A stretch of DNA of 64,000 nucleotides, from contig WIUZ02000010.1 in assembly GCA_015956445.1 (NCBI GenBank), positions 1,240,001 to 1,304,000 on the forward strand. Reading direction: 5' to 3'. This document shows positions 1,206 to 35,952 of this stretch, in pieces; position 1 is the stretch's first letter; each line of letters opens with the position of its first letter. Below the pieces are notes generated by a model. The model made no database searches, was not told the DNA's origin, and worked only from the letters and a program-made list of their open reading frames with translations. The translations under genes and the position numbers were made by a program. The stretch comes from Thelephora terrestris. Lineage: Eukaryota; Basidiomycota; Agaricomycetes; Thelephorales; Thelephoraceae.

Positions 1206-2168
1206 CCGATTGGTCAGTTGGTCCCGATCGAAGAGATGATCGTCGACAAGGCTGAAGAGGAGCCGAGGACTGTCAAGGTACGTCCAACTTGAACTGGGCA
1301 GCGTTGTAAACGCTCCCGGTTTAGTCGAGTGGGTCGGATGGCAGCCTCAAATCCTTACCCTCCTCCAGTTGAGTCAGATGGTGATGAGTCTGGTGGAGGT
1401 GAGGGAAGACAATTCCAGTACAGGGTAAACCAGCCACTCTGACAGGTTGAGTCAGAGGTCCAGCATTGCTACTTCACTCGACTTGCAGTTAAGGATTCCG
1501 CCCAGGGGTCCGATGGTGGATTGCTTGCCGACTATGTTGACACCGCTCCCAAGGAGTCACCAGGTCCTGGAGATGCTTGACCAGGTGTTGAGGAATTTGG
1601 GACACTGGGGGAAAGGGGTGGTGTTCTGGTCCAGAACATTGCAAGTTCATTGCAAGGAAATGGACAATGTGCCTGGCAACAACCAACCCAGTACATCGCA
1701 AACACATTCTGAAATTTTCAGGCCAATTTCCTTGCAGTGTTCTAGACCAGAACACCACCCCTTGCCCCCAGTGGGAGTATCTGATTGTCTGGTGGGGCCT
1801 TATGAAGGAGTATCTTCATACACGCTTGAACTGACAGTTCAGCTGAGTCCGGAGGATGGAGATGCAATGCTTGAGACATTGGCCGTTGATTGCTTCCAGA
1901 TTGTGGCGTATGAGATAGGCCAAGCGGAGGGGGAAGAAGTGATCTTCGGATTGCAGGGGTGAAACAGTTCCTGGTAGAACGCCAGGTCGGCTAGGATTCA
2001 ACTCTTAGTGTCAATATTATAACCAGTTTGTTTGTCCGGCTACAATATTGCCTTGGAATTGATTGCGCTGTCGTGCCGTTGAATCAGCCGTTCCCCAAAT
2101 CTTCCTATTGGCTGGTTGACCCCATTGAGTTCCAGCAGTTCCTCGGCCTCCCCTTATCGGAACGGTCT
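1206..2168 (+). pseudogene. Remnant of an unrecognised spliced gene
   Basis: Coding-like sequence on the plus strand continues on both sides of the 171-bp palindromic element at 1603-1773 in the ORF spanning 1447-1962, and an acidic, protein-like segment ends at 1962. A GTACGT donor-like site lies at 1279. A further short open stretch runs from 2028 to the truncated palindromic element at 2169. I recognise no domain. The solo LTR lies directly upstream, so the 5' part of any gene is disrupted. It may be the tail of one of the transposon-borne genes seen further right (compare gene D), but I could not show clear similarity. Confidence 0.35.
1603..1773. mobile_element. 171-bp palindromic CACTG element (MITE)
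   Basis: Inverted ends CACTGGGGG...CCCCCAGTG enclose an almost complete palindrome whose arms share GTTCTGGTCCAGAACA-like and CTTGCAGTG-like sequence. A 3-bp target duplication GGA sits at 1600-1602 and 1774-1776. There is no coding capacity. The termini and 3-bp duplication fit a non-autonomous CACTA/EnSpm element; this is the smallest of the nine in the window. Confidence 0.9.
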
Positions 2169-2506
2169 CACTGGGGGCAAGGGCACCTGGAATCAGTGAT
2201 TACATCTTGATTACATGGTGAGTCCATGTGCACTTTCCAATAATTGTAATCACCAATTCCAGGTTGATTACATCTCAAATGTTACCTTGACATGTAATCC
2301 AACCAATGTCCGCCAATTCCATTTGAAATGTTCTGAACAAATGTTTCTGGGATGTTTTTTACCTGTGGGCAAAAATGATGCTGCAATGTAGTCAACATGT
2401 TCTTCAATCGTCCAAGATGTAATCTAAATGCGCTCAAAAACATGAGATGTTTTCACAATGTGCCCAGTGGGCACATTCAGGAAACATTGCTTGGGAACAT
2501 CTTGTT
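2169..2506. mobile_element. Truncated palindromic CACTG element
   Basis: It starts CACTGGGGGCAAGGGCACC and matches the reverse complement of the 501-bp element at 26686-27186 over about 340 bases. It then stops near 2506, so the far arm and terminus are missing. No second target-site copy can be identified. Confidence 0.85.
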
Positions 2507-3300
2507 TTCTGGATGTTCTTCCCCGCTTCGCACTCTCTTCCCAGGAACCCCTTTTGAATCCCCGTGCTCTAGGCTTCATTCATCCGTTTCTCGATTCACC
2601 GGGACTTCAATATTCCTGATGCCTCATTCGCCAAGACTCTCATCATGCTCTCAACTCTTGTTCTAGCCTCTCGTTACTAGTCCCCATTGATATTGCATCT
2701 TCCTGCTGCTGATTCCCGGTCCCCTCATCGTCTTGTGCCCAGTTCTTCACCCTTCGCCTTTCCCATCGATTGGAACACTCCGATCAATTGATCCACTGCA
2801 TTCCCCGCTCCATTCCGTTCTCCGAGCAATTGCTTTCACCACTTTTGCCTTTGTCTTTTGCCCTCGAGTCTGTTTCCCTGTGTTTTTTCCTTTATGACGC
2901 AGCTCTCCTCTCTTGCTGTTGTCACTCTTCATCATTCTCCTTTAGTGATGTTTCCCCTCTGTAGTTACCCCTTTGACCTAGTTCCCCTTAGTTTCGCTTT
3001 TCGTTTCCCACTCTCTCTCTCTCAAGCTATCCTCGACACTGCCTATTCAGGAGATTCCTCGGTTTCCTTTATATACTGTGTCCTAGATAGCCATGAATGC
3101 ATTGATTTAGATCCCCCAGTTCAGTTCCAGTCCGAGTCTCCAGTTCTCCAGTTCGTTCTCCAAGTCTCCAGTTCTCTCTCTCTGTGTTTCAGTGCTGCTA
3201 TCCTATCTGCCTACCCTGCTACTCTAAGCCCTCGCAACAAATCTCCACTGCAACTTGTTGCAACCTCGGTTCCCATCCCACTCTGCTTTGTCTCGGTACT
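2507..3300. other. Pyrimidine-rich stretch with no recognised gene
   Basis: The plus strand is rich in C and T, with TCTC and CCAGTTCTC-type runs and a TATATA-like sequence near 3071. The ORFs here (for example 2858-3316) have no recognisable domain and follow the base composition. It could be a promoter or an old LTR. It ends where the terminal repeat TGTCACGAAC begins at 3301. Confidence 0.4.
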
Positions 3301-3544
3301 TGTCACGAACGCGTGACATAGTGGCCAAGATCGCACAAATAATTCATGACATTGGTTGCATTGGTAATATTAATACAAAAGGAATGCAGTACAAAACAAC
3401 TAAACAAGGACGAATGGATCCACGTCACAAGCACACTCCTGAGAAAATGGACAACGATGAGCGAATTGATGAGGATTATGTACGCTCTGTGGGCAATGAG
3501 CCCCTTCAGCTATCTTTTCTCCATGGGTCATGGGCCATGCAATG

Positions 3545-3960
3545 TTGTACAACGTGTTGTACAACCCATGACCCATGGGAAATAGATAGGTATCCGTTGC
3601 CCATGCCTCATGGGTTGTACAACACTATCCATTCTCCATGCCCCATGGGTTGTACAATGCTATCCGTTCCCCATGCCTCATGGGTGTACAATGCTATCCT
3701 TTCCCCATGGGGCATGGGTTGTACAACACTATCCATTCCCCATGGGGCATGGGTTGTACAACACTATCCATTTCCCATGCCCCATGGGTTGTACAACACT
3801 ATCCATTCCCCATGGGGCATGGGTTGTACAACGCTATCTGTTTCCCATGCCTCATGGGTTGTACAACACTATCCATTCCCCATGGGGCATGGGTTGTACA
3901 ATAGCATCTTGTGCCCATGGGGCATCAGTTGCACAGTGGTGTCCTTTCTCCATGTCCCAT
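3545..3960. repeat. Tandem array, CCATGGGG/TTGTACAA type (left arm)
   Basis: About ten imperfect units of roughly 40-46 bases combine CCCATGGG or CCCATGAG with GGTTGTACAACACTATCC. Both CCATGG and TTGTACAA are palindromic, so the single strand can fold at every unit as well as pairing with the other arm. Confidence 0.9.
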
Positions 3961-4199
3961 GGATTGTATCACTATTCCAGGAAAGGAGATACTTCATAAA
4001 TCAACCATCATAAGAGGTCCTTTATGGACAACCAACAGGAAACACTAATGAGTTACATAACAAACTGTGTGACTTTGAAAAAATCAAACTCTGTTTGTAT
4101 GCATGATAGACCACATACCAGTTTGTGGCTCTAACCTGACCCAATGTAAACCTGACCCATGACCCTAAGCTTAACCTAATCCTGAACCTGGTCTAATCC

Positions 4200-4335
4200 C
4201 AAATCTCACCCTAACCTAACCTAACCTAACCTAATCTGACCTGAACCTAAACCTAACCTAACCTAAACCTAACCTAACCTAAACCTAACCTAACCTAAAC
4301 CTAACCTAACCTAAACCTAACCTAACCTAACCTAG
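4200..4335. repeat. CCTAA/CCTAAA telomere-like array (left arm)
   Basis: CCTAAC and CCTAAA repeats form a 16-base higher-order unit, ACCTAACCTAACCTAA. The usual fungal telomere repeat is TTAGGG, so this is not a standard fungal telomere. The complementary array lies at 4984-5140. Confidence 0.9.
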
Positions 4336-4983
4336 TATGGGCAAACCTAACCCACCTATCATCTCCTATTTCAGCCTAATGTCATATATACCAGCCAAAA
4401 CTAACTTCACCCAGTTGCAAACATATGACTTGGGTCACAGGACCATAAAGCAAACTGCAGTCCCCTCAGTCTGTGCTCAACCATCCCATAGGCCCACAGA
4501 CCCACATATATATCATCAGCAACCCAGCAACAAGTTTGTCACCCATGTTCAACCCCAAACCACTCCCACCCTTTGTTCTGTGCTATCTTAAAGCCTGACC
4601 ATAACTCTAGCTCACCCACCCATGTTAATCCTTTTGTAGACTATGTTATAGGTCTACAAACTATATGTTTGTAGGCCACTTGCTTGTGGGCCCAATGAGG
4701 TGGATGAGCTTGAGTTATGGTTTGTCTGTGAGATGGCACAGAACAAAGGGTGAGGGTGGTTTGTGGTTGAGCATTGGTGACAAGCATGTTGCTGGGTTGC
4801 TGATGATATATATGTGGGTCTGTGGGCCTATGGGATGGTTGAGCACAGACTGAGGGGACTGCAGTTTGCTTTATGGTCCTGTGACCCAAGTCATATGTTT
4901 GCAACTGGGTGAAGTTAGTTTTGGCTGGTATATATGACATTAGGCTGAAATAGGAGATGATAGGTGGGTTAGGTTTGCCCATA

Positions 4984-5140
4984 CTAGGTTAGGTTAGGTT
5001 AGGTTTAGGTTAGGTTAGGTTTAGGTTAGGTTAGGTTTAGGTTAGGTTAGGTTTAGGTTAGGTTAGGTTTAGGTTAGGTTAGGTTTAGGTTCAGGTCAGA
5101 TTAGGTTAGGTTAGGTTAGGTTAGGTTAGGGTGAGATTTG
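4984..5140. repeat. TTAGG/TTTAGG telomere-like array (right arm)
   Basis: This is the inverted partner of the array at 4200-4335, with the same 16-base higher-order pattern and slightly more copies. The inner arm sequence between the two arrays is also inverted, which accounts for the mirrored ORFs there. Confidence 0.9.
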
Positions 5141-5339
5141 GGATTAGACCAGGTTCAGGATTAGGTTAAGCTTAGGGTCATGGGTCAGGTTTACATTGGG
5201 TCAGGTTAGAGCCACAAACTGGTATGTGGTCTATCATGCATACAAACAGAGTTTGATTTTTTCAAAGTCACACAGTTTGTTATGTAACTCATTAGTGTTT
5301 CCTGTTGGTTGTCCATAAAGGACCTCTTATGATGGTTGA

Positions 5340-6000
5340 TTTATGAAGTATCTCCTTTCCTGGAATAGTGATACAATCCATGGGACATGGAGAAAGGACA
5401 CCACTGTGCAACTGATGCCCCATGGGCACAAGATGCTATTGTACAACCCATGCCCCATGGGGAATGGATAGTGTTGTACAACCCATGAGGCATGGGAAAC
5501 AGATAGCGTTGTACAACCCATGCCCCAGGGGGAATGGATAGTGTTGTACAACCCATGCCCCATGGGGAACGGATAGTGTTGTACAATCCATGCCCCAGGG
5601 GGAATGGATAGTGTTGTACAACCCATGCTCCATGGGGAAGGGATAGTGTTGTACAACCCATGCCCCATGGGGAACGGATAGTGTTGTACAATCCATGGGG
5701 CATGGGGAATGGATAGCATTGTACAACCCATGCCCCATGGGAATGGATAGTGTTGTACAACCCATGGGGCATGGGGAACAGATAGTGTTGTACAACCCAT
5801 GGGGCATGGGGAAAGGATAGCGTTGTACAACCCATGGGGCATGGAGAGCGGATAGCATTGTACAACCCATGGGGCATGGGCAGCATATACCGTTGTACAA
5901 CCCATGGGGCATGGGCAGCATATACCATTATACAACCCATGGGGCATGGGCAACGGATACCTATCTATTTCCCATGGGTCATGTGTTGTACAATGGTATC
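5340..6000. repeat. Tandem array, CCATGGGG/TTGTACAA type (right arm)
   Basis: This is the inverted counterpart of 3545-3960 but longer, with about fifteen units. The difference in unit number shows that the arms have expanded or contracted independently since the hairpin formed. Confidence 0.9.
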
Positions 6001-6858
6001 TTTTCTCCATGGGTCATGGGTTGTACAACGTTGCATGGCCCATGACCCATGGAGAAAAGATAGCTGAACCCTGTGGGACAATACAAATACACCCGAGTCA
6101 CCGGATCTTGCCAGCAATCTCTGCACCCCAACACGTCATGTTGAAGACTCTCATGCATCTCCTGCTTCACGTCCGTTAAAGCCTCGCTCACTAATGTGAA
6201 CCCATAGCGGTTCTGGAGACCCGCAACCTCCACCTTCAACTTCATCCAAATCTGGTGAGCCTTGTCGGATGGATGACACCGCTGACCAGAATGAGTCATT
6301 GGACTCTTGCGACTCTTCTTCTTTTGGGTCCTCTCCACCATTTGATGAGCCGGAACAGGACTCCAAGGAGGGGATTGAGGGAGAGGAATTCCCTGATCCT
6401 GGCAGTGTCGGAGGGACAACGGGGGAGTGAGGAGCTGGGTCGGTGCAATAAGCTTCTTGGCATTGATGGCTGAAGTACCAGTAGAGAGACTCCTGAAATG
6501 GTTTCCAATGTTCCAAGGCAAAGTGAGAAAAGTCTTCATTAAGACTGTTGACAACGACATACATAACATCCATCCGATTCTCCAACTTCCTGATACAATC
6601 TTCCCTCTCCTGCTCCATTGCATCCAACAGAGGGAAAACACCGGGGGCCTGCATAATGGTTTGGTTGGGATCTTCATAACCGGCCTGATCCTAGAAATGA
6701 GGAGGAGCGTGGTGGGCGGTCAAGAAGTCCACAGCAACCCTGTTGTCATGGGCGATGTTGGCGGGCGTGTCGTACAAGTGTTGTTCAACTTCATAGGGGG
6801 TATCGGCCTCATAAGGAGAGGCAGAAACAAAGGGGGTGGCAACAGCGTTGAGAGACAT

Positions 6859-7477
6859 AATAGTAAAAGGTGTTTGTGAGAGGAAGGGGGTTGTAGATTG
6901 GTGGGAGTGGAAAAGAGACGATGAGGAGAAAAGACCAAGAAAACCCACAGGCTAAATACGCCCAGAACAATGGGATGCCCAAAAGGGTAACAACAATAAA
7001 CCATTATCTGTTGTTATCCCAAAAAGGATAAACGAACCCTCAGCCCCAATCACGATCCCATCAACTCTGGGAAATCCCCATCAATCATAGGAAATCCCCA
7101 CCATTCTTCTAAAATTACCATGAAACCTGAGAATTCCCCATCGATCAGGAGAAATCCCCATTGTACTCTTATTAATTCAGCCTCTATTGTTCTCCTATTT
7201 ACATTTGCCAGTAATTGTTCTGAGTCTCTTCATCCTGACTCATTTACCCTACCCTAAACTACGCACAGACCATGTTGACTCCTGTTTGACTCACAGTACA
7301 ATTACTAAGCCTGTAGAAAATTGGGTATATAAGGAAGAGTGTTCGCTCCTTTCTTTCCCCATTCTCAATCTCTTCTGTACTCTCCTACTCACTGCAATAA
7401 ACAAAAGTAAGCCGAGGAATTCTCCTCACGCCTTACTAGTATCTGACTCATTCAAGCAGGAATTCTCCTGCCATTGT
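6859..7477. promoter_or_regulatory. Divergent promoter region of A and B with GAAATCCCCA repeats
   Basis: The region between the divergent genes A and B holds three to four copies of GAAATCCCCA or a close variant at about 7070-7165. The mirror region in the other arm has six of the same motif, GGGGATTTCTC. A GTATATAAGG box lies at 7325-7334, about 150 bases before the B start. The motif may be a binding site; this is inference. Confidence 0.55.
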
Positions 7478-8101
7478 ATGTTCAGCACTCCTAACCCCTT
7501 CCCTTCTACTAGTCCTCTCCAATGTCCGGTCATACCTGACGCTCAACGATCCATCTGGGAGTATAAACTCATCAGAAGCCTTCAACTTAATAGAACCGGT
7601 GGTCTATTAGCTCATCACCCTTATTATTGTCCCTTCGCTGCTCTCGACGCTGGAGTCACTACTCCTACATTTCTACTTGGAGCTGACCATCAGTTCCTCT
7701 GGAAGTCTGATCTTACTGAGAGCATGCTAGCCACCATCTACTTCAGTATCAGCCCGGCATTTTACTTTCCCACTCCCCGAATCCACCTCACCACCAACGT
7801 CCATACTCATTGCCCCGCTATCATTGTTCTTTGGTGGGACATACCAACTGATTTACCTTTTGCAGTTATAGAATATCTCACTAGCTTTGAAGATCTCAGC
7901 GGTCAAGACTTTGACCCCTTCATTCAGCATTTAGTCGAATTCTGCCAAGACCACAACTCGCCCATACATCCTTACCACTTCGAGTCACCACTTGCCCTCG
8001 ATATCCCTCCTCCTCTTGTCTCTACTCCAGGAACTCCTTTCCTCAAACCTCGTACAGACACTCCCCACCCCGCTAATCCTCTAGCGCCCCACAGACAGTA
8101 A
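7478..8101 (+). CDS. Gene B, unknown 207-residue protein of element 1
   Basis: A single exon from ATG 7478 to 8101 encodes about 207 residues. I do not recognise the family. The protein has a central conserved block (SIWEYKLIRSL; FLLGADHQFLW; HCPAIIVLWWDIP), an aromatic middle part and a Pro/Thr-rich tail with PPPL and STPGTPF. No signal peptide or membrane segment is evident. The inverted copy B' keeps the same frame and length with many, mostly conservative, changes (S/T, I/V, K/R, D/E), as expected when both copies have been under protein-level constraint. B is divergent from A and tail-to-tail with B'. Confidence 0.6.
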   Translation: MFSTPNPFPSTSPLQCPVIPDAQRSIWEYKLIRSLQLNRTGGLLAHHPYYCPFAALDAGVTTPTFLLGADHQFLWKSDLTESMLATIYFSISPAFYFPTPRIHLTTNVHTHCPAIIVLWWDIPTDLPFAVIEYLTSFEDLSGQDFDPFIQHLVEFCQDHNSPIHPYHFESPLALDIPPPLVSTPGTPFLKPRTDTPHPANPLAPHRQ

Positions 8102-8315
8102 GCAGGCCTTCAACCCTGACAGTACTCATGCTTTACTCTAGTCATTGCGGTCTTCCCCGGCGATTCACCAGACTTCTACAGGCAACTCAGAACAGATCTT
8201 CTGTTCCGGTGGTCATATAAATCACAACACTCAACCAGCACCTACCCTCAACTGCTTGTTCACTCTATCTAAGGTATCTGACTACCTGGAGTGTTTGTCA
8301 GGGTTGTAGGCCTGC
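8102..8315. other. Loop and symmetry centre of inverted element 1
   Basis: The B and B' arms run through mirrored GCAGGCCTRCAACCCTGACA sequence at 8103-8124 and 8298-8319. They leave a loop of about 170 bp (8126-8296) bounded by CCCTGACA and TGTCAGGG. These inner edges resemble the TGTCAGGG terminus of the 555-bp repeats at 11596 and 14482. No gene is seen in the loop. Confidence 0.6.
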
Positions 8316-12150: not shown

Positions 12151-12362
12151 GCCCGGAATGTCAGCGTGCTGAATTTTAACTTCTTTTTGAACCATTTGCA
12201 CACCCAACTTTCGATCACTTTCCTTACCTATACCCCTTTACTATCTTATCCCTTCCCCTTATCACAACTCACACGTCATCAAGAGACACAGACAAAGGCA
12301 CAGATGATATTACAAGCGGGCGAACCCGTGACGAAGACACAAGACGAATGGCCAACGGATCG

Positions 12363-15629: not shown

Positions 15630-16354
15630 CACTGGGGGCAAGGGGGTACTTACCCAATGGGCATATTGTGAGTTCATTGTGAGTTTTGAAACCATTCACC
15701 CAGTCATTACCCACCAGGGACTTTTGGGGTACTTTTTGAAAAATACCCATCAATTCACCCATATTTTACCCACTGGGTACATGGTGGGTACTTTGTAAAA
15801 GTACCCACACAGGAACCCAGTGGGTACTTCTTGAGCGAAACCCCTGGTTTCTTTCACAATTTACTTTACAAAGTGCCCATCACAAACCTGAGCCACTCGT
15901 TGAGAGTTCTTTCATAAAGTACCCACTGATCTGATCACAATGTACTCAGCCAGATACTCAATGGGTTCCTTGAGAGTTCATGATGAAACTGAGCCACACT
16001 GTGGATTCTTTGTGACTTCTTTGAAAAAGACCCACTGGGTACATTGTGATCAGATCAGTGGGTACTTTATAAAATAACTCTCAACGAGTGGCTCAGGTTT
16101 GTGATGGGCACTTTGTAAAGTAAATTGTGAAAGAAACCAGGGGTTTCGCTCAAGAAGTACCCACTGGGTTCCTGTGTGGGTACTTTTACAAAGTACCCAC
16201 CATGTACCCAGTGGGTAAAATATGGGTGAATTGATGGGTATCTTTCAAAAAGTACCCAAAAAGTCCCTGGTGGGTAATGACTGGGCGAATGGTTTCAAAA
16301 CTCACAATGAACTCACAATGTACCCACTGGGTAAGTACCCCCTTGCCCCCAGTG
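15630..16354. mobile_element. 725-bp palindromic CACTG element
   Basis: The ends are CACTGGGGGCAAGGGGG and its complement and the whole length is a near-perfect palindrome built on phrases such as GTACCCACTGGG and TTCTTTGA. Flanking triplets CAA (15627-15629) and TAA (16355-16357) fit a decayed 3-bp duplication; the intact gene C shows one triplet there. No coding capacity. Confidence 0.9.
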
Positions 16355-19512: not shown

Positions 19513-21448
19513 TGAACTGCTACTATCCGGGTGGAGTCGGGACACGACCAGAATAGTAGAAGTGGGGGTGAGGGGTCACCGGTTGTGCAGAGGTCGGGAA
19601 GGGGAGAGAAGCTAGACAGAGGAGAGGGAACCACGGTAGGTCGCGACGTTGTCGGGACGAGAAGGGAGAACTCCGTACTAGCAAACTCCTGCTAGACGAT
19701 GACGATGGGCTAGTGGGCTAGGGGGCTATTGGAACTATGAGGCTAGTGGAATCGATGTCAGAGCGAGGGGCTGGAGGTTTTCGATGATCAGTTCGTTCAG
19801 GCAGAAGGGAGAAGAGGTGTGAAGAGGCCCGGGGGTTTCTTGTTCGTTCAACTAGCTAGTACAGGGTATTTATAGGTAGGGACAGTGCGATCTACGCGAA
19901 AGAGATGAGAAAAGTAGCGAACAAATGGAGAAACGGTGGGAGAATAAGAACAGGTAGATAGAAAGGGATAAACGAGAGTCCGACGCAGGGTAGGGAGACG
20001 AACGGTTCATCGGGAGGCCGGAACGAGGCTGGGACAGGTCTTACCGAGAGGATGGAGCGATCATGAGAAACAGACACTGGGGGCAAGGGGTCAAATACCC
20101 AGTGGGTACATGCTGAATACATTGTGATCACAGTCAAAAAGTGATCACAATGTGCCCAGTGGGGAAATTTTGAATACATTCAAAATGTACCTGGCCATGT
20201 GAACCCAATGTGCCCAGTGGGCACATTTTGATTGCGATCACAATGTACCCATCAATGTGATCTCAATGTGCCCACTGGGGACATTTTGATTGTGATCACA
20301 ATGTACACATCAATGTGATCTCAATGTGCCAGCTGTGCACATTTTAATTTCTTTCACAATTTTCCCATCAATGTGTTCCCAATGTACCCAGCTCATTACA
20401 TAATAGTTTCTTTCACAATGTTGTCCACAATGTGTCCAGCATGTGGCTGAGCCACTCATTCAAAATTCTTTCAAAGATTATCCAGTGATGTGTCCATAAT
20501 GTTCCCAGGGGGTTCTTTTTGAAGTAATCACAATGTAATCACAATATTGTTCAATTTCATCATGAACTTTCAAAGAAATCACTATGTGTATGGCTGTACA
20601 CATTCTAGACACATCACTGGATACTTTGTGAAAGAATTTTGAATGAGTGGCTCAGCCACATGCTGGACACATTGTGGACAACATTGTGAAAGAAACTATT
20701 ATGTAATGAGCTGGGTACATTGGGAACACATTGATGGGAAAATTGTGAAAGAAATTAAAATGTGCACAGCTGGCACATTGAGATCACATTGATGTGTACA
20801 TTGTGATCACAATCAAAATGTCCCCAGTGGGCACATTGAGATCACATTGATGGGTACATTGTGATCGCAATCAAAATGTGCCCACTGGGCACATTGGGTT
20901 CACATGGCCAGGTACATTTTGAATGTATTCAAAATTTCCCCACTGGGCACATTGTGATCACTTTTTGACTGTGATCACAATGTATTCAGCATGTACCCAC
21001 CGGGTATTTGACCCCTTGCCCCCAGTGAGAGCCAAAAGGGGAAGTCTACGGGTTCGAGATCAAAAGATTGTAACCGGGCGGGAGAGCGGGAGCAGTCGAA
21101 GATGATTGGCGAGCGAGAAGGAACAAGTCGACACGTGTCTAGACTGAAGGGAACCGGACCGGGGAGGGAACGCGTCATCGCGACGAGATAAGGGATTGGG
21201 AGGCATCGGCCGATCAACACGTCTTGTGCCGTTCGGGGAGGACGGCCACGGATGCGGAAGCAGTAGGCGATGACGCACGTCGAAGGGATCGCGAGAACGG
21301 TTTGATGATCGGGACGTCAAGTGGGCGTGACACCCCTGTGACCGATCGAGGGGTCGTCGGCTCGCGTAGTCAGTAGTTAGCGGGGTAGGGAGACAGGGAC
21401 TGGGGACTAGCACTAGATTCGAAGGTCGCGCGAATAGACGGTGGGTCA
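19513..21448 (-). repeat. 3' LTR of the Ty3/gypsy element, with an insertion
   Basis: This is 980 bp of LTR plus the 953-bp palindromic element and its 3-bp duplication. It starts TGAACTGC and ends GGTGGGTCA on the plus strand. The sequence TTTAAAGTCTCGAGGAGA directly inside it (minus sense, 21449-21466) is the likely polypurine tract region. Confidence 0.92.
20075..21027. mobile_element. 953-bp palindromic CACTG element inside the LTR
   Basis: The ends are CACTGGGGGCAAGGGG, the target duplication is AGA (20072-20074 and 21028-21030), and the empty site GAAACAGAGCC can be read in the other LTR at 34102-34112. The symmetry centre is near 20551. Because only one LTR carries it, it inserted after the retroelement did. 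Confidence 0.95.
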
Positions 21449-25653: not shown

Positions 25654-26178
25654 CACTGGGGGCAAGGGCCCAAATACCCACCAGGTACATTGTGATTACA
25701 TTGTGGTTACAGTCAACAAGTGATCCCAATGTGCCCGGTGGGTAAAAATCAGGTACATTCAAAATGTGCCCAAAAATGTGAATTTAATATTACCGCTGGG
25801 CAAATACTGATCGCATTTACAATGTACCCAGTCATGTGACCATAATGCACCAAAACGCATGTCCTAGGCATATTTTGAATACATTCGATTCACATTGTAA
25901 AATCGACGACATTCAAAATGTGTTCACAATGTACCCCACCAATTCCTCCACATGTTGAATACATTGTGAATGTGATCGTCGATCGCATTCGAAAAACTTT
26001 TTAGGGCAAGTTTTGAATGTGATCTACATGTTTGGTGATGGCAAAATTTGATTCACATGATGGAGTACATTCAAAATGTGTTCACAATGTACCCACTGGG
26101 CACATTGGAGTCACTTTTTGACTGTGACCACAATGTAATCACAATGTGCCCGGTGGGTATTCAGGCCCTTGCCCCCAG
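25654..26178. mobile_element. 525-bp palindromic CACTG element in the pol end
   Basis: The ends are CACTGGGGGCAAGGGCCC and its complement, and the arms are complementary over the full length. The target duplication is TCA at 25651-25653 and 26179-26181. It differs internally from the other subfamilies. Confidence 0.93.
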
Positions 26179-29100
26179 TGTCAGGGTCTTCGCTGGTGGA
26201 GTCCTCGTCGTCGGGAAGAGTCGTGAAGCTTGGGTCGCGAGTCTCTGTACGAGCAAGGTAGGGGATTAGACGAAACCCGGCTACCCTGAGCTGAGACTGG
26301 GCGCTGTCGAGTTCAGCGACGATGTAAGAGGGGCCAGCCTTCTTGCGAATGACGACATAGGGGCCATTGTACCGGGGCTTGGTCTTGCGGTTCAGAGACT
26401 CTTCGATGCGGGAGTTCCGAACGAGGACCAGGGATCCGGGCTTGAAATCGAAGTCTACAATCTGTGAACCATGGCGCTTCTCAAACCGTTCTAGGTTCTT
26501 GACGCGGGAAGCGGTAACTGTCTCCTGCATCTTCTCAATATCTTCTTCGCGCTTCGCGAGCTGACGAGCCCGGATCGCGATGAGTTCCTCGGTAGAGATG
26601 CCAAAGTCTTGGGCAGGGACAAGGTAGGTGGCTTCAAGAATATCGAAGGGAAGGATGGGGTGAACACCGTGGACCATGTAGTAGGCACTGGGGGCAGGGG
26701 CACCTGGAATCGGTGATTACATCCCAATTACATGGTGAGTTCATGTGCACTTTTCAATGGTTGTAATCGCCGATTCCAGGTTGATTACATTTAAAATTTT
26801 ACCTTGACATGTAATTCAACTGTGCCCACCAACTCCATTTGAAACTTCCTCAAAATGTTCCCAAGCAATGTTTCCTGAATGTGCCCACTGGGCACATTGT
26901 GAAAACATCTCATGTTTTTGAGCACATTTAGATTACATCTCGGACGATTGAAGAACATGTTGACTACATTGCAGTATCATTTTTGCTGACAGATAAAAAA
27001 CATCCCAGAAACATTTGTAGAGAACATTCCAAATGTACTTGATGGACATTGGCTGGATTACATGTCAAGGTAACATTTGAAATGTAATCAACCTGGAATT
27101 GGCAATTACAATCATTGAAAAGTGCACATGAACTCACCATGTAATCAAGATGTAATCCCCGATTCCAGGTGCCCTTGCCCCCAGTGAGGGGGAGAACCCA
27201 GTCGCCTTCCGTACAGTGACGCGCTCGGCCCAGAAGACCTGCGGGAGAACCTCGCGCCACTTGGACTCGTTTCCGTGACAGGTTTTCATGACAGCTTCAC
27301 GGACATCGAAGTGCTTCGACTCGACAATCCCATTGGCTCGGGAGTTGTAGCCAGAGATGCGGATGTGTCGTATACCATATCGCGATGCAAGGATGTCGAG
27401 GGCGGCGATATAGGAGGAACCGTTGTCGGTGACAATCTCGGCGATGCCACCCCAACGACACAGGAGGTCCTGGAAGATGAAGTCGGCGATCACCTTGGCG
27501 GACTCGGAGGTAGTTGCCCGGGCTTCGGGATAAGACGTAAGCGCATCGCGAGCGTGGATGACGTATCGGTAGCTTCCGGTCCTGGGCATAAGAAAGGTGT
27601 CGATATGGGCTTTCCAAAACAGGCCGGGAACGGTCGGGACGGTTGGCGGGATGTAGAAATATTCGGTTTGGCGCAGCTGACACTCGTGACATGTCTTGAC
27701 GTACCATCGGACGTTCTCACTGAGGCAGGGCCACCAGAAACGCAGAAGTAGGTTGGCTGTCGTCGCGAAGGCTCCCTTGTGGCCGAGGTTGTCGTGGGCA
27801 AACCGAATGAGGCGGAGGCGATCTGAAGGAGGAGGAACGAGCTGTGGGCTACCCTTGCGATTCTTCCGGAACAGCTTGTTGCCAACGAGGAAGTAGTCTG
27901 TGGCTTGGCGGATGAACTGCCGGTAGTCGTGGTCAAAGAGGTCTGGAGGGCGCTCCAAGTCGGACAGGAACTTCTGTATCACGACCAGCCGTTCTTCGTG
28001 ACGGAGGCCCTTGGGGGACTGGGGGATCGCGACATCAGTCTCAGAATCCGGTGCGGAGGATCGCGACGGAGCGGCAGAGTCGTCGGGAGGTTCTGGAGAG
28101 GGTCGAGGGGAAGGAGAGGAGGCATGCAGAGCTGGTTCGGGTTCAATGGCGAATAATATAGAAGGTGCCGGGTCTAGGGGGGTTCGAGGTGTGTTGACTT
28201 CAAGGAAGAATCCTGCGCCGAGGTCTATCCACTCTTCTAGTTCGTCCGGATCGTCGGGAGGCGGATCCTCAGGGGCGCGAGGACGACGGGAGAGACCGTC
28301 AGCTCCGGTGTGCTTGTCAGCGGGGACGTGGACGAGCTTGAAGTCAAAGAGCAGGATGGCGGATATCCATCGGTTCACGGCATCGTTGGGATGGAGCGTA
28401 GGGTTATTGAGCATCCCCTTGATAAACTTGGCATCCATTTCCACAGTGAGTTTCTTCACGCCGATGGTGTAAATCTGCGTCTGCTTGAGTGCGCGAAACA
28501 GCCCAAAGAGCTCGAGCTTGGCCTGAGAGTATCGCGACTCGCGATCGTTGAACGTGATGGACCCGAATCGACTGGGGTAGCGCTTGCCGTCTTCACCGAC
28601 CTGAAGGAGAATGAAACCAACACCGTTCATGCAGGAGTCGACGGCTAGGATGACTGGGCGTTGCGACTCGTAGTCGATAGGGCGTAGAGCTGGTGAGTTT
28701 ACGATCGCAGCCTTGAGGTTCTCGATAGCTGCCAACTGCAGGGGTCCGATTTCGAAGGGTTCGTCTTTCCGTGTTAGCTGGATGAGGGGCCTTGCGACGA
28801 GAGTGTAGTTCTTGATGAAGATTCGAAGGACTCCACAGGTTCCCAGAAAGGCTCGAACCTCTGAGACATTCGTCGGGACTGGCCAGTCCTGGATGGCCTG
28901 GATTCGCGAAGGATCCGCGATACGACCTTCGTAAGTACAAATGTGTCCAAGAATGTCGGCCTGGGGTACTCCGATGAAAGCCTTCTTCCCGCTAAACGTA
29001 GCCCCGTAGGACTTGACGCGCTGGATGATCCGGTGGACTGCTTGGAAGTGCTCCCAGACGAATCGTCGAATGCCTGGGTTTTCGGGGATGGTCTTGTACG

Positions 29101-30649
29101 TTCCGTCGGGAAGCTCGTATCGCGACTTTGGGCCTTTGATGGGGACATCGTCGGCGAAAGGCTGGGTCCAGTGCGGGATTTCGGGTCGAAGAATGTGGGA
29201 GACGTCTCCCTGTAGCACGGCTGGGGAGTTGGTCCAACCCATTGGTAGAACTGTCAGTCGGAACGCGCCAAGGGGAGTGTTGAACGTAGTCATGTCGCGA
29301 GAGTCGGGATGAAGCTGGCGCTGGTCGAAGGAAACGTATAGGTCGAGCGTGGTGTAGATGGAGCGACCAGCGAAGTCTTCGGCAACCACATCAGTGTAGG
29401 GAGGCATGGCAGCGTTCTTGATTGTAACGGCGTTGAGAGGCTCCAGGGAATGGACCAGACGTAAGGACTTCCCATCCTTCTTGTAGACACAGAACCATCT
29501 GCTGTTGTAGGAGGAGGACGAGGGTTCGTAGACACCGGACTGCCACTTGTTCTCGATGATCTGGGTGACCTCAGAGAGGATCCCGCGAGGGATGGGGCCT
29601 TGTCTGAGTACCCAGGGCGTGTGCGCGATGTGCGGGATCTCGATGGGGGCGAAGTACTTGGGATCAAATGTCCCTCTCTCGTCGTCGGTCCATGCGAATG
29701 CCGTGTGATGGGTGCTAACGATCCACTCCGCGAGCTTCACTTCTTCTGGTAGCAGAAGTCCTTTGCCAAGCGCCATTTGCTTCCGGCGTTCGGGAGTGAA
29801 GCGGGGGACGGGGGTGTATTTGGGAGGGTGCGTAGGCAAGGGAGGCATGTCGGCAAGGGGGTCGGGATGGTCGTGCCGAATGATCTGAAAGTTCTCTGGC
29901 AGGGTGGTGGCGACGGGTCGAGTCTTGTTCGCTACTTTCTTGTACAGGAACGTGGATCCACCGAAGGTCTCGCTAGCGAGCGGGATCTGGGAGTAGAGCT
30001 CCGATAACCACATGCTGGCTGCTCGTGCGGGAGTGAGAGGGTCGAGAGGGGGAGATGGTAACTCTTCGCGAAGGGCTGCAAACTCTGTCGAAAGGTCGCG
30101 ACGGGCGGGAGCATTACCCATCGCGAGGAAGAAATGTTCTAGGCGTTCTGACGAAGTTCCTGCCACTTCGAGAGGTGGGTAACCGTCCTGGGTGTCTGCA
30201 TTGTTTTGGGGTGATCTTTCCGTCACACTCGATCTGAGAGCTCTGTAGACCTCTAATGCCAGGTGGCGGGTGAGAGCTGGTGTCGATGAGGTGGTCGCGA
30301 CGTCGGGAGGATCGGGGATATCGAGAGTGGAGCGATCCGGTGGGGTCTCAGGATGGCCATCTATAGAATCGTATCCTATGAAGAAAGAGGAGAAAGGAGT
30401 GGGGGCAGCATAGTAGGATGATATGGGGAAGGGAGCAGAGGAGATAAAAGGAGAAAGGACGGAGGAAATCGAGACAAGAGGAGGTGGGAGAGGAGACATA
30501 GGTGAAACTGACGCAAGTTCTGGTAGAGGGGACCGGGACAGGGAGGTATCATAGGGTATCCGATGTTTTGCGGCCTGCAGCTTGGCGTGCACTGCAGACA
30601 CTGGGAGTCGGTTGGGTCGGGACGCGGGAGTAGGTTCAGACGGCTCCAC
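26111..30649 (-). CDS. Ty3/gypsy pol region (RT, RNase H, integrase), interrupted
   Basis: The main open frame (27134-30649) contains a reverse transcriptase with LPMGWTNSP and FADD motifs, an RNase H domain (AVDSCMNGVGF; ADGLSRR), an HHCC integrase zinc-binding region (CHECQL) and an integrase core with HIDTF, TDNGSSY and ANGIVESKH. A chromatin-binding-like C-terminal part, with a GPYVVIRKK-type segment, lies at 26179-26677. A 501-bp palindromic element (26686-27186) and a 525-bp one (25654-26178) split the region. It is a recent fossil of a probably once-active element. Confidence 0.9.
26686..27186. mobile_element. 501-bp palindromic CACTG element in the integrase region
   Basis: The ends are CACTGGGGGCAGGGGCACC and GGTGCCCTTGCCCCCAGTG, and the target duplication is AGG at 26683-26685 and 27187-27189. 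It is the full-length relative of the truncated copy at 2169-2506. Confidence 0.95.
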
Positions 30650-30717
30650 GAAGATGTGGGGCTCTTTGCGCGAGAGCGGGGGAGGTTGGGGCTCTGTCGC
30701 GACCGTAGTGCCGTCTG

Positions 30718-33399
30718 CTAATGAAAATTTACCGCTTCCTCGGGATTTGGTCGAGGAGACTTGCGGATTCGGGGCTGCGTCGCGAACACGTAGAGCTTTC
30801 CCGTTTTCGGATCTTTGACGCGGATCTCGTGCTTCCCTCCTGCGCTGCTGACTTCGGAGCAGCTGATGACATCGAAGAAAGGTCGTCCTAAAAGAACCTC
30901 GAAAGGCGCTTCTTCGACGACCTGGATCTGGAGATAGATAGTGATGGGACCGAGCTGAACTGGGTGGTCTTCAATAAGGCCTAGCGTCATGGTGGTGCTT
31001 GCATTCGCCGACTCCATTGGCATAGCGCGACTCGCGACGATGGGTGCTTGCAATCGGGACCAGACATCCTTTCTCATCACCACGACCTGAGCACCTCCGT
31101 CGAGAATGCACTCGGGTTCGACACCCGGCCCAAACGTCGGGTGGATGACGCGAAGGGGAAGGGAGGAGGCTGCTGCGGAGGATGAGGAGTCGTACTTCAC
31201 GAGGTCCAAGAAGACTGAGGGGGGTTCTGCATCGAAACATCCAGCTAGGTAAGCATCCACTTCATCGACTTCTACCGTGTTGGCCGAGATCTTCTTGCTG
31301 GTGACAATCTCCCTGACGTGTTTTCGAAGGTCGGGAGCGACGGCCAGAAGTTCGCGAGCGCTGAGGTTGACCTTGGAGTCGAGCACACGATGGACTATGT
31401 CGCTTGTCTTCACGTTGTGTTCGACTGGGGCCTGGAAGCGATACTTGGAGTCGTCGGGAGGTGGTCTAGGTGGATAGGAGACTGGTCGCATCGGTCCTTG
31501 GGGGCGCTGTGTCTGGCGATCTCCCGCTCGAGCTCCAGGCTTTCCGGAGGTGTTGGCGGGGTTCGTCTGGGTCTGGGTAGGATCAGGAGTGGGCTTGGAC
31601 GGTCCCGACTCGTGACTGGCTGGGGTAGGGCCCGTAGGGGCAGGTGGTAATCGTCCGTCCCTTCGGGGTGGGCCCGTCCTTCTCGCGATCTCGACACCGT
31701 CAAACCTGACTTTCTTGGGGCCAGTCTGCAGGGCGTAGATCTGGGCGTTGCGAATGGAGTCGAGCTGGGCTTGCATCAGTTCGACTTGTTCTAGTGTCTC
31801 GTCGTCGTACTTGGAGAGGGGGGTAGGAGCGTAGCGACTCTCGACGGGAGTGTGTGGTATGCTGGTAGTCGCGTAGTCCTCCTGGTCGGGATCGTATTCC
31901 TCCTCGAAGAGGTCGTACTGTTCGTCGGGATGGGCGTAATACTCTTCGGCAGGGGGGTCTATGTCTATGGTGAACACACACTCGTCTGGGCCTTCCAAGA
32001 AGTTGGTTGCAAAGGCGTCGCGACCTTGTCCTTCGTCGAGGCCCTCTGATGTCCAGTAGTTGTCGATACGTTCGCGAAGGTTCTTGCCGGGGATGTTGCG
32101 TGGAGGGTAGCGGCCATCGGGTAAGGATAGCTTCCCGTAGCCGTTCTTGATGACCTTTCCTTGTACAAGGTAGTCCGCTGCGATGGGGCAGTCGCGAACG
32201 AAGTGGTCATGGGCGCTACAGAACACGCAGTTCTGGGTGTACTGCTCTGGGTTTAGGGTGTTCCACCGGGGGACGTTTTGAAATACTCCTCCCGGAGTAG
32301 TCTGGGAAGTAGCGGGACGAGGGAGGCGTGGTGGAGGGGCAGAAGGAGGGGGCCCACGGCGAGGCTGTACGTTCGCGGTGAAGACCCGAGTCAGGTTTGA
32401 CATCGCCTGGATGAGCTCGCTGACGCTCCCCTGCTCTGCGGGCTCCGTCTTCGGGATGACAGCTTGAGAGTCGGGGTTGTCGTCGGGAGCGCGTGCGTTG
32501 AGGACAAACAACGCAGCCTCGTGGACATCAGAGAACTGGTAGCCGTCGTCGGGAAGGACGTCAGGCTTCTTGATCGACAGTCGATGCAGGATTCGTGCGC
32601 GGATAGGCTGGGGGAATCCCCTGAGATAGGCGGCGTCACGCTCCCAAGCGGTGTAGCGTCCCTTCGCAATGAGGTACGCGGAATAGGTAAGGAAGGACCG
32701 GTAGTAGTCGCCGAGGTCTTCGCGACTCATGTCCCGGTACCCGCGAGTGCGCTCCAGGAGGGTATCCAGATCTCGAGTGGTCCAGCGGCGATCCGCTTGG
32801 AGGTGGGAATAAAGATGTCTAACTTCGATCTTAAACTGGGCCCAAGTGGCGGGAGTGTGAGCGAGGACGTCCGGGTGCAAGCAGGGAACGTGCTCCCAGG
32901 ACTCAGCTGCGCGACCGGCGTAACGCTGAGCCCAGTCAATCATCTGTGCGTCGTCTAGACCTGCGCGCTTGGCTACCTCCTCGAGCTCGTCAAAGAAGGT
33001 CTTGAAGCCTTGCTCAGTATCGGAGGCGAACCGAGGAGCCTCGCGACTGTGCGTCAGGGGCATGTTGGCCGTCATTGCTGGATAAGATACGGGTGGGTGG
33101 GTGGGAAAAGTTGGTGTCGTGATCGGGAGGGCCTGCGCGAGTCGTGACGGGGAGTCTGGGGGAGTGGGCGATCGCGACGGCGGAACGGTGCCTGGCAAGT
33201 CGGTGGGTGAAGATAGTGGGGTGCGGAAGAAGGTCTCGTCTTGTTCGGGATGTGGGAGAGGGTTGTTCGATGAGGAGGCGATCTGCCGGGCTACGATGGC
33301 GGAAACAACGTTGTCGAGTAGAGAGAGAGTCTGGCGAGTGTCGAGAATAGCCTGTCGGGCTTCCCGAACGTCTTGGTTAATCTCGGCTGGGGCTTGCAA
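30718..33399 (-). CDS. Ty3/gypsy gag with zinc knuckle and protease
   Basis: One open frame of about 893 residues. The N-terminal half has a retrotransposon gag/capsid-like region (FKIEVRHLYSHLQADRRW, LAHTPATW). A CCHC zinc knuckle reads CVFCSAHDHFVRDC. A Pro-rich and acidic linker follows, and the C-terminal part is a retropepsin-like domain (CILDGGAQVVV; FEVLLGRPFFDVISC). It would make the particle and process it. The frame looks whole. Pol starts as a separate frame a short distance downstream, as is common in this superfamily. Confidence 0.88.
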   Translation of the reverse strand: MQAPAEINQDVREARQAILDTRQTLSLLDNVVSAIVARQIASSSNNPLPHPEQDETFFRTPLSSPTDLPGTVPPSRSPTPPDSPSRLAQALPITTPTFPTHPPVSYPAMTANMPLTHSREAPRFASDTEQGFKTFFDELEEVAKRAGLDDAQMIDWAQRYAGRAAESWEHVPCLHPDVLAHTPATWAQFKIEVRHLYSHLQADRRWTTRDLDTLLERTRGYRDMSREDLGDYYRSFLTYSAYLIAKGRYTAWERDAAYLRGFPQPIRARILHRLSIKKPDVLPDDGYQFSDVHEAALFVLNARAPDDNPDSQAVIPKTEPAEQGSVSELIQAMSNLTRVFTANVQPRRGPPPSAPPPRLPRPATSQTTPGGVFQNVPRWNTLNPEQYTQNCVFCSAHDHFVRDCPIAADYLVQGKVIKNGYGKLSLPDGRYPPRNIPGKNLRERIDNYWTSEGLDEGQGRDAFATNFLEGPDECVFTIDIDPPAEEYYAHPDEQYDLFEEEYDPDQEDYATTSIPHTPVESRYAPTPLSKYDDETLEQVELMQAQLDSIRNAQIYALQTGPKKVRFDGVEIARRTGPPRRDGRLPPAPTGPTPASHESGPSKPTPDPTQTQTNPANTSGKPGARAGDRQTQRPQGPMRPVSYPPRPPPDDSKYRFQAPVEHNVKTSDIVHRVLDSKVNLSARELLAVAPDLRKHVREIVTSKKISANTVEVDEVDAYLAGCFDAEPPSVFLDLVKYDSSSSAAASSLPLRVIHPTFGPGVEPECILDGGAQVVVMRKDVWSRLQAPIVASRAMPMESANASTTMTLGLIEDHPVQLGPITIYLQIQVVEEAPFEVLLGRPFFDVISCSEVSSAGGKHEIRVKDPKTGKLYVFATQPRIRKSPRPNPEEAVNFH

Positions 33400-33547
33400 A
33401 GCCAGGAGCCGAGCGCGAGATCGCGTCTGAGGGGGGGAGAAATCTAGCGGGATAACCTTTTGCGTACGACCTCGTCCGCGGGGTGGAATGGCTGATAGCT
33501 TCTAGCCAGAAGTGACCTCCGAACCGGTCTCGGCGTGGGTTCCAAAA

Positions 33548-34527
33548 TGAACTGCTACTATCCGGGTGGAGTCGGGACACGACCAGAATAGTAGAAGTGG
33601 GGGTGAGGGGTCACCGGTTGTGCAGAGGTCGGGAAGGGGAGAGAAGCTAGACAGAGGAGAGGGAACCACGGTAGGTCGCGACGTTGTCAGGACGAGAAGG
33701 GAGAACTCCGTACTAGCAAACTCCTGCTAGACGATGACGATGGGCTAGTGGGCTAGGGGGCTATTGGAACTATGAGGCTAGTGGAATCGATGTCAGAGCG
33801 AGGGGCTGGAGGTTTTCGATGATCAGTTCGTTCAGGCAGAAGGGAGAAGAGGTGTGAAGAGGCCCGGGGGTTTCTTGTTCGTTCAACTAGCTAGTACAGG
33901 GTATTTATAGGTAGGGACAGTGCGATCTACGCGAAAGAGATGAGAAAAGTAGCGAACAAATGGAGAAACGGTGGGAGAATAAGAACAGGTAGATAGAAAG
34001 GGATAAACGAGAGTCCGACGCAGGGTAGGGAGACGAACGGTTCATCGGGAGGCCGGAACGAGGCTGGGACAGGTCTTACCGAGAGGATGGAGCGATCATG
34101 AGAAACAGAGCCAAAAGGGGAAGTCTACGGGTTTGAGATCAAAAGATTGTAACCGGGCGGGAGAGCGGGAGCAGTCGAAGATGATTGGCGAGCGAGAAGG
34201 AACAAGTCGACACGTGTCTAGACTGAAGGGAACCGGACCGGGGAGGGAACGCGTCATCGCGACGAGATAAGGGATCGGGAGGCATCGGCCGATCAACACG
34301 TCTTGTGCCGTTTGGGGAGGACGGCCACGGATGCGGAAGCAGTAGGCGATGACGCACGTCGAAGGGATCGCGAGAACGGTTTGATGATCGGGACGTCAAG
34401 TGGGCGTGACACCCCTGTGACCGATCGAGGGGTCGTCGGCTCGCGTAGTCAGTAGTTAGCGGGGTAGGGAGACAGGGACTGGGGACTAGCACTAGATTCG
34501 AAGGTCGCGCGAATAGACGGCGGGTCA
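33548..34527 (-). repeat. 5' LTR of the Ty3/gypsy element
   Basis: 980 bp, TGAACTGC...GGCGGGTCA on the plus strand, matching the other LTR at all but about five positions by eye. In the minus sense a TATAAATA box (33902-33909) lies in the LTR. The sequence next to the LTR inside the element starts TGGAACCC after four T's, a candidate primer-binding site; I could not assign the tRNA. Confidence 0.93.
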
Positions 34528-35952
34528 CCGGGGAATTGGAAGACGATAAGGTACTGGGACTGGGATCGAAGATAGTTGTCATCTTCTAACCCTGTTCCTT
34601 TTAGGTCCGCCTTACTCGTCGTGTCTCCGAGTTGACTGGAGAGGTCCGGGATCTCCAGAGGAAGTGCAACGAGCCGGAGGTCCAAGTCGAAGAGGAGGAG
34701 CCGGAGGTTCCGCATCGGGCCGGGTCGCCGATCATCCCTAATCGGGCTGAGTCGCCGCCCGCTCGTTTGTTGGTCCGCCATGAGAATAGGTTGCACTGGG
34801 GGCAAGGGGTCACTTACCCAGCGGTTACATTGTGATTACATTGTGATTTTTTAGACAATGTATCCAACCTGTGGCCAGGAGGTACATGCTGAGTTCTTTT
34901 AGAAAGTACCCATCAATGTGACCACAATGTGGCCAGTGGGTCCATCTTGATCACTTTTACAAAGTGCCCATCAATTCGATCACAATGTGCCCTGTGGGTC
35001 CATGCAGGATACATTGTAAAAGTATTCATCAAAGTGGCCATGGGCACTTTGTGAAAGAAACACCTGGGTTCTTTCACAATTTTACTTACAATATGTCCAG
35101 CATACACCTGAGCCACTCATTGAAAGTTCTTTCATGAAGTATCCAGCAATGTGTCCACAAAGTATTCAACCAGATACTCAATGGTTTCTTTGAGAATTTG
35201 TTGTGAAACCCAACCACATTGAGAGTCATTGTGAAAACATTGAGTAGAACCCCCTGGGGACATTGTGGTTGCATTGCAGGGTACTTTTTGAAAGAACTCT
35301 CAATGAGTGGCTCAGGCACCCAGTGGGATAAATTGTAAATAATATTGTGAAAGAAAACCCTGGTTTCTTTCACAAAGTGCCCAGTGGCCACTTTGATGAA
35401 TACTTTTACAATGTATCTTGCATGGACCCACAGGGCACATTGTGATCGAATTGATGGGCACTTTGTAAAAGTGATCAAGATGGACCCACTGGCCACATTG
35501 TGGTCACATTGATGGGTCCTTTCTAAAAGAACTCAGCATGTACCTCCTGGCCACAGGTTGGATACATTGTCTAAAAAATCACAATGTAACCACAATGTAA
35601 TCACTGGATAAGTGACCCCTTGCCCCCAGTGTTGGTTCCCATCGATGATGAGGTCATTGAGATCGGGAGCGACGAATTCTATCAGAACGTAGGAGTCGTC
35701 CGTAGGGACACTCCTCGTCCTGAGTTCGTTTCTACTCCTTGGGGTAGTCGCTGTCAATGGCCTGCTCTGGAGTACAATCCGTACGCCGAGTTCGTTCCCG
35801 ATAGTGAACCAAACTCTGATACGGAGCTTCCAGATTACGATGACTTGTCAGACATGGATCCAAACGAGATCCGGCAGCAGAACTGGTTGAATGAGGAGTT
35901 GGTGAGATCGGCATTGGAAGTAGTACAAAGGATCCGAAGAGATATTGATTAG
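34528..35952 (+). CDS. Gene D, 3' part, with a palindromic insertion
   Basis: The coding sense resumes at the CCGG next to the LTR and reaches a GTACTG donor near 34550. The next exon starts after CCTTTTAG near 34605 (RLTRRVSELTGEVRDLQRK, a coiled-coil segment) and runs into the 838-bp element at 34794-35631. The final segment, about 35632-35952, is acidic (PIDDEVIEIGSDEFYQN; SEPNSDTELPDYDDLSDMD) and ends RRDID. The gene has thus been opened by two unrelated insertions. Family unknown. Confidence 0.6.
34794..35631. mobile_element. 838-bp palindromic CACTG element
   Basis: The ends are CACTGGGGGCAAGGGGTCAC and its complement, with full-length arm complementarity. The target duplication is TTG at 34791-34793 and 35632-35634. 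It has its own internal subfamily sequence. Confidence 0.94.

Follow-up and report, generated by a model that had tools for sequence, protein, structure and literature searches.

CACTG-ended elements in the window

This study deals with a group of short inverted-repeat elements in the basidiomycete Thelephora terrestris. The analyzed window is a stretch of 64,000 nt (contig C2, positions 1240001-1304000) of the 40.6-Mb genome, which is assembled in 60 contigs. It contains seven complete elements with CACTG ends that are bounded by the terminus CACTGGGGGCAAGGGG, and one truncated copy (Table 1). These elements are best read as non-autonomous, CACTA/EnSpm-type transposons that resemble miniature inverted-repeat transposable elements (MITEs). 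Three of their types are palindromes over nearly the full length, and at three loci of the assembly a copy stands at the centre of mirror-image flanks.

Perfect 3-bp target duplications were present at six of the seven complete elements, the exception being the element at 15630. The original prediction, which had been made from the sequence alone, was right about the positions, about all of these triplets, including the imperfect pair, and about the lengths of 171, 501, 725, 838 and 953 bp. It had listed nine elements, all complete, which was an overcount, and its value of 525 bp was measured as 527 bp. When up to three mismatches were allowed, the terminus was found at 17 places of the window, compared to a mean of 0.83 in 100 shuffled sequences. 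The seven complete elements account for fourteen of these and the single end at 2169 for one; the last two (11665 and 14952) belong to a separate inverted structure. Among the matches listed for the transposase families Tnp2 and Plavaka, none lies inside the window.

Table 1. Elements with CACTG ends in the window (TSD, target site duplication)
Position	Length (bp)	Type	TSD	Remarks
1603..1773	171	171-bp CACTG element	GGA	arms of about 50-60 bp
2169..2504	336	truncated 501-type copy		single end; 93% over 336 bp to the copy at 26686
15630..16354	725	725-type palindrome	imperfect, flanks CAA/TAA	
16703..17656	954	953-type palindrome	TCA	954 bp in this copy; internal 58-bp tandem repeats
20075..21027	953	953-type palindrome	AGA	outer arms 99.5-99.7% identical
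25654..26180	527	527-type element	TCA	strong palindromy confined to outer ~100 bp
26686..27186	501	501-type element	AGG	palindromic in outer ~150 bp
34794..35631	838	838/840-type palindrome	TTG	58-bp tandem repeats in arms

Target duplications throughout the genome

With up to two mismatches, the 16-base end was found at 645 and 638 places on the two strands of the genome, and the reversed pattern that served as a control at 23 and 12. Judged from this count, the genome would contain about 600 copies. The exact 17-base form CACTGGGGGCAAGGGVH occurred at 295 and 304 places and its control at none. Neighbouring plus and minus exact ends were combined into pairs, and the three flanking bases were read on both sides. 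Pairs less than 1.1 kb apart were designated short, and long pairs were counted separately. The GGGGT class comprises the 953 and 838 types, and its pairs were drawn from contig C1 up to position 320812 of contig C15 (219 of 422 ends). For the 501 class, 213 places matched, and the pairs were drawn from the first 100 of them. The search patterns of the 725, 501, 527 and seventh classes omit triplets that begin with C at either end. Ends without a partner stand outside the pair counts (39 of 219 for GGGGT, 19 of 57 for 725, 30 of 100 for 501, and 6 of 58 for 527).

For the four classes together, 144 of the 156 short pairs had identical flanking triplets. The individual values were 73 of 81 (GGGGT), 15 of 16 (725), 33 of 34 (501) and 23 of 25 (527), and shuffles gave means of 4.2, 1.7, 2.5 and 3.2, respectively, with maxima of 6-12. 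Three of the other 12 pairs carried inverted triplets. The lengths of the short pairs had clear modes at 953 bp (21 of 81), 840 bp (19 of 81), 725 bp (16 of 16), 501 bp (30 of 34) and 527 bp (16 of 25). In a smaller sample, 15 of 17 complete elements had matching triplets, where L014 and L015 are the same locus on two contigs. Contig C48 repeats the stretch of C12 that contains this locus (L015/L014), and C36 repeats a stretch of C3 (L023/L022), both with 99.7-99.9% identity; these short contigs are perhaps haplotype or redundant contigs.

The duplicated triplets had the form A/T-N-A/T in 115 of the 144 matched pairs, a number that includes three classes searched without C-initial triplets, and in 54 of 73 pairs of the GGGGT class, for which all triplets were searched. 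The most common duplications were TCA/TGA (33 of 144) and AGA/TCT (22 of 144), and the others varied. A natural empty site was also found. Two copies of the same kind of locus are 92-94% alike; one of them (L058) has a single ATA and no element, and in the other (L075) an 840-bp element lies between two ATA triplets, upstream of a Tnp2 gene. A seventh subfamily with the ends CACTGGGGGCAGGGGTTGG / CACTGGGGGCAGGGGTTGGTTTACTGA has 30 and 28 ends in the genome. Half of its 14 pairs below 5 kb have a length of 1,365-1,368 bp, and 12 of the 14 have identical triplets. On contig C1, the exact ends are clustered at about 0.12-0.26, 1.29-1.35 and 3.28-3.38 Mb and are sparse in the long stretches between.

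In summary, the 3-bp duplications proposed from the window recur at copies elsewhere, apart from nine of 156 short pairs that had neither direct nor inverted triplets. The elements show the features of MITEs, i.e., they contain no transposase, they are short and have modal lengths, and they are present in many copies.

Palindromy and relatedness of the interiors

Every element had been described as complementary to itself along the entire length. This applies nearly to the 725, 838 and 953 types, but in the 527, 501 and 171 types only the outer part is palindromic. In the three former types the identity of the arms is 0.92-1.0 across the outer 250-400 alignment columns. The 725 and 953 types have an unpaired centre of 85-97 bp, and in the 838 type the pairing fades gradually toward the centre. 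In the 527 and 501 types, pairing is at background beyond about 100-150 columns, and in the 171 type beyond about 50. Nevertheless, the self-complementarity of all seven elements (0.665-0.936) exceeded the maxima of 12 shuffles each (0.529-0.559). For the element at 20075-21027, folding as single-stranded DNA yielded -549.7 kcal/mol, compared to a mean of -134 for 20 shuffled sequences.

According to the original prediction, the types had nothing in common but some 16 terminal bases, and every type had an interior of its own. This turned out to be wrong for most of them. Every pair of the 953, 838, 725, 527 and 501 types of the window could be aligned, with E values from 9e-97 to 7e-6, except for 725 and 501. 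The E values were about 5e-95 for 953 and 838, 7e-91 for 725 and 838, 7e-38 for 953 and 527, 3e-22 for 527 and 838, 6e-16 for 953 and 501, and 3e-7 for 501 and 838. The weakest matches were those of 527 with 501 (7e-6, 31 bp) and of 725 with 501 (0.001, 58 bp), and therefore the 501 type is the least certain relative. The best E value of the reversed-sequence controls was 0.069. The 171 element has little in common with the other types beyond its end (best E value 0.005, 17 bp). Tandem repeats with a period of 58 are present within the arms of the 953 and 838 types and may correspond to the sub-terminal repeats of CACTA/EnSpm. The words ACATTGTGAT and AATGTGCCCA were found repeatedly across the window elements. 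Most interiors share a common ancestry, as the alignments demonstrate. Most subfamilies are best read as descendants of one ancestor, in which short repeats would have formed two inverted arms on either side of a small asymmetric centre.

Evolution of the arms

The histories of the arms were compared for available copies of the 953, 838, 725 and 501 types, a non-random sample that excludes the long pairs L070 and L071. For five regular 953 copies, the mean identity of the two arms of one copy was 0.978, compared to 0.925 over all 945 possible pairings. The true pairing was the best of the 945, and eight of ten arms had their own partner as the nearest relative. When the set was enlarged by L077 and L005 to seven copies, this was the case for 10 of 14 arms. 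Among the five copies, 16 sites were altered alike in both arms of a single copy and one site was altered differently in the two arms. Of 41 shared sites, the outer ones were mostly equal between the arms and those from column 391 inward were mostly arm-specific. In the set of seven, 7 of 62 shared columns were equal between the arms in every copy. In the 953 type, the evolution of the arms on either side of the asymmetric centre is partly concerted.

The similarity of the arms could also date back to several founder elements that became palindromic independently and then spread by transposition, with no ongoing homogenisation. We consider this explanation possible but rather doubtful. L051 and the copy at C1:1302273 share arm-symmetric variants that are absent from L003 and from the element at 16703, a lineage-like distribution that would be expected from it. 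However, the five copies have a common asymmetric centre with arm-specific bases from column 391 onward, which suggests one ancestral palindrome, and three of them carry private variants in both arms, four in the element at 20075, six at C1:1302273 and six in L051 (with five copies, the designation private is provisional). Concerted change of the two arms is preferred for the 953 subfamily, in which palindromy seems to be regenerated.

Elements at the centre of mirror-image flanks in the assembly

The three short pairs with inverted triplets were all confirmed from the flanking sequences, and the assembly has mirror-image flanks at all three loci. The largest is centred on a 725-type element (C1:3989367-3990091) with the flanks ATT / AAT. 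The inner 799 bp of the flanks are identical in inverted order. The same holds for a 50-base probe at 6 kb, and for the outermost 464 bp, which extend to breakpoints at 3983272 and 3996186. The whole structure has a length of 12,915 bp and consists of two arms of 6,095 bp, each of which contains a Tnp2 match. About 1.65 kb per arm were compared in total, and the arms differ by one base in a 345-bp Tnp2 segment near 5 kb from the centre. The structure lies within a 4.6-Mb contig, where the sequences beyond its two outer ends are unlike each other, and no direct repeat was seen at the breakpoints.

The second locus (C1:201797-202667) has the flanks AGT / ACT, and the 249 bases read per side are identical in inverted order. 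Relative to the centre, probes matched exactly at distances of 1.0 and 1.5 kb, with about 92% identity at 2.0 kb and partially at 2.5 kb, and those at 3.2 kb and further had no match. At the third locus, a 501-type element (C4:1099894-1100393) has the flanks ATT / AAT and 100 identical inverted bp per side, and a probe at 1.5 kb had no match. The inner arms of this element retain differences between left and right (identity 0.877), and the two have their nearest relatives in different arm types of other copies. Together with the identical flanks, this is not what would be expected if a single molecule had simply folded back. An exchange of strands inside the arms that copied one flank onto the other would be a better fit than a central turn-back. 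The double CAAGGGC ends at this locus were rejected as a clue, as one case was seen and about 1.4 in 34 pairs are expected by chance.

Alternatively, the mirror loci could be artefacts of the library or the assembly, e.g., fold-back chimeric reads or graph errors, and the elements would then be ordinary MITEs. A hairpin-forming sequence would be a plausible place for assembly errors, and the arms of the largest structure show no difference in the inner 799 bp, at the 50-base probe or in the outer 464 bp. Nevertheless, this explanation is unlikely. The arms of the largest structure do differ, at one base in the 345 bp near 5 kb, and it is flanked by unlike sequence on both sides within its 4.6-Mb contig. 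At the second locus the arms are about 92% identical at a distance of 2 kb and no longer match by 3.2 kb, the outer probes at both smaller loci were unmatched, and the C4 element has kept its left-right differences beside identical flanks. From these results we infer that the mirror structures are probably real, with assembly error as the main doubt.

Family assignment and search for an autonomous partner

The assignment to CACTA/EnSpm that had been made from the window was borne out by the CACTG ends, the 144 duplications in 156 short pairs, the empty site, and the presence in this genome of a Tnp2 element that likewise has CACTG ends and a 3-bp duplication. The elements have both features of the superfamily, CACTA/CACTG terminal inverted repeats (TIRs) and 2-3 bp duplications, and with their CACTG ends and 3-bp duplications they behave like CACTA/EnSpm. 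The available part of PMC12730594 likewise describes a group of EnSpm families from fungi with 3-bp duplications and CAC..GTG ends.

The genome contains 73 Tnp2 matches and at least 132 Plavaka matches (123 of 261 candidates scored), an abundance in keeping with an agaricomycete. Scans for a partner covered 30 of 132 Plavaka loci and 30 of 73 Tnp2 loci with 1.5-kb flanks, and three Tnp2 regions of 9.5 kb. The local Tnp2 element (L073, 6,397 bp) has CACTG ends (CACTGTAG...) and an AAT duplication. It is the only complete CACTG Tnp2 element in these scans, and its TIR differs from that of the palindromes. The Tnp2 gene of L075 with the 838-type element upstream was rejected as the autonomous partner, because the empty site L058 identifies this element as a plain insertion. 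The first four classes include 14 long pairs of exact ends (1.5-11 kb, among them pairs of 4,716, 9,222 and 10,903 bp), 12 of them with matching triplets. In two of the long pairs, L070 and L071, the ends agree in sequence with those of the 838 and 725 types. L069 was rejected as a long element, as it consists of two separate elements. The matching long pairs may be palindromes that carry nested inserts.

The original prediction had proposed that one transposase mobilises several unrelated palindromes and that an autonomous relative with the same ends should be sought. Most interiors are related, and among the ends listed, no exact match to the terminus bounds an element that encodes a transposase. 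A larger non-palindromic parent, of which the elements might have been fragments, was not found either.

Plavaka could be the source of the elements instead of Tnp2-type EnSpm. At least 132 Plavaka matches are present in the genome, and PlavakaB makes duplications of 2-3 bp according to the available part of PMC12730594. However, the Plavaka termini given there are TGT..ACA or CATCA..TGATG, compared to CACTG here, and none of the 30 scanned Plavaka loci had a gene bounded by the ends of the palindromes within the 1.5-kb flanks, which longer elements could escape. Plavaka was rejected on its termini, and we regard this origin as very improbable. PIF/Harbinger, which duplicates the 3-bp target TWA, was dismissed, since the duplications found here varied and TCA/TGA and AGA/TCT were the most common ones.

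Proposed mechanism

Taken together, we regard as probable an account that combines MITE-like transposition of the CACTA/EnSpm type with fold-back repair of arms and flanks. The elements would move by cut and paste, probably with a Tnp2-type transposase acting in trans. Their insertion would create 3-bp duplications and take place mostly at A/T-N-A/T triplets. Ends, duplications and spread that result from Tnp2-like transposition are established for CACTA/EnSpm. As the arms can form a hairpin, a broken or single-stranded copy could anneal to itself and copy one arm onto the other, and this copying might sometimes extend into the flanking chromosome. It would restore the identity of the arms in at least one subfamily, and would have left the three copies that centre inverted duplications. 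The idea that the mechanism of transposition itself generates palindromy fits in part. The likeness of the arms within 953 copies and the three mirror loci are in agreement with regeneration, but the 838 and 501 types are not, and fold-back repair or recombination is probably responsible rather than the transposase.

Several results weigh against this account. An autonomous element bounded by CACTGGGGGCAAGGGG was not found, and none of the 73 Tnp2 matches lies within the 14 long exact-end pairs listed. Nine of the short pairs have neither type of triplet. With seven 953-like copies, 13 of 135,135 pairings were as good as the true one, and the arms of one of these copies (L005) are unlike each other (identity 0.687). 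In the five regular copies, 27 sites were altered in one arm only, compared to the 16 altered in both. The arms were nearest to their own partner in none of eight cases for 838 (p 0.23), in none of eight for 501, including the C4 mirror copy (p 0.79), and in four of six for 725, including the C1 mirror copy (p 0.07), where two of the four come from the mirror locus. The 838 and 501 arms retain separate histories.

With slightly more doubt than belief, we tentatively propose in addition that the CACTG palindromes are self-repairing hairpins that remodel the chromosome and seed inverted duplications of host DNA, and that palindromy is a by-product of repair which is spread by transposition. The largest of these duplications spans 12.9 kb and includes a transposase gene in duplicate. 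Should the mirror structures prove genuine, palindromic transposons would give rise to inverted duplications without any selection in the laboratory. A compact eukaryotic genome with hundreds of related 0.5-1 kb hairpins represents a natural experiment on the survival of palindromes. Copy by copy, it could be asked whether arms are homogenised, how often the chromosome turns back on itself at a hairpin, and whether repair turns ordinary MITEs into palindromic ones.

Other structures in the window

The window contains several further inverted structures. A 2.16-kb region (3591-5749), which is not a CACTG element, is 92% self-complementary and has 35-bp tandem repeats on both sides and CCTAA / TAGGT arrays inverted toward the centre. 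Nested, diverged inverted repeats at 6076-10427 (7071-8121 / 8296-9345 and 6076-6635 / 9868-10427, both 78%) perhaps represent an older palindrome of 4.3 kb. Inverted arms at 11596-12158 / 14473-15036 (95%) have CAATGGGGCAAAGGGG inside, and further arms at 13882-14477 / 15037-15639 (83%) end at the 15630 element. The terminus-like pair at 11665/14952 was rejected as a CACTG element because its flanks are inverted as well, and it is part of a different inverted structure.

The minus strand contains open reading frames of a Gypsy-type retrotransposon at 27134-33501 (reverse transcriptase, RNase H, integrase, protease). Of the CACTG elements, that at 26686-27186 extends 53 bp into this open stretch, and that at 25654-26180 adjoins it. 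Further open reading frames on the minus strand (38711-42233) are WD40-like and NACHT/NPHP3_N and appear to resemble a fungal NLR-type gene.

Comparison with known systems

The elements resemble non-autonomous members of CACTA/EnSpm (CMC) in their CACTG ends, 3-bp duplications and short internal repeats, and a CACTG-ended Tnp2 element with a 3-bp duplication is present in the same genome. They are unlike CACTA/EnSpm (CMC) in having no gene of their own and, in three types, near full-length palindromy. The PAL-type elements of C. elegans and Foldback of Drosophila have long inverted arms, and most copies are without a gene. Foldback arms also have internal repeats, and the ends and duplication lengths of both differ from those of the CACTG elements.

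A literature search by title and opening abstract, with most subscription papers and Repbase outside its coverage, retrieved no report of fungal palindromic CACTG elements. Nearly perfect palindromic MITEs are already known, as the available part of PMC1784062 describes Made1, a human mariner-type MITE, as such a palindrome. Like Made1, the elements described here are non-autonomous DNA transposons of which the whole body can form a hairpin; in contrast to Made1, which is mariner-related and has 80 bp, they reach about 1 kb and have CACTG ends and 3-bp duplications. In yeast, fold-back inversions are mediated by hairpin-forming repeats, according to the available parts of PMC7467729 and PMC10164571. 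The likeness lies in flanking DNA that is inverted and duplicated around a hairpin-forming inverted repeat, but the yeast cases are laboratory events and those in T. terrestris are putative traces in an assembly. What appears to be new is that members of a CACTG family reach this size, that their arms have mixed histories and that they are linked to inverted duplications.

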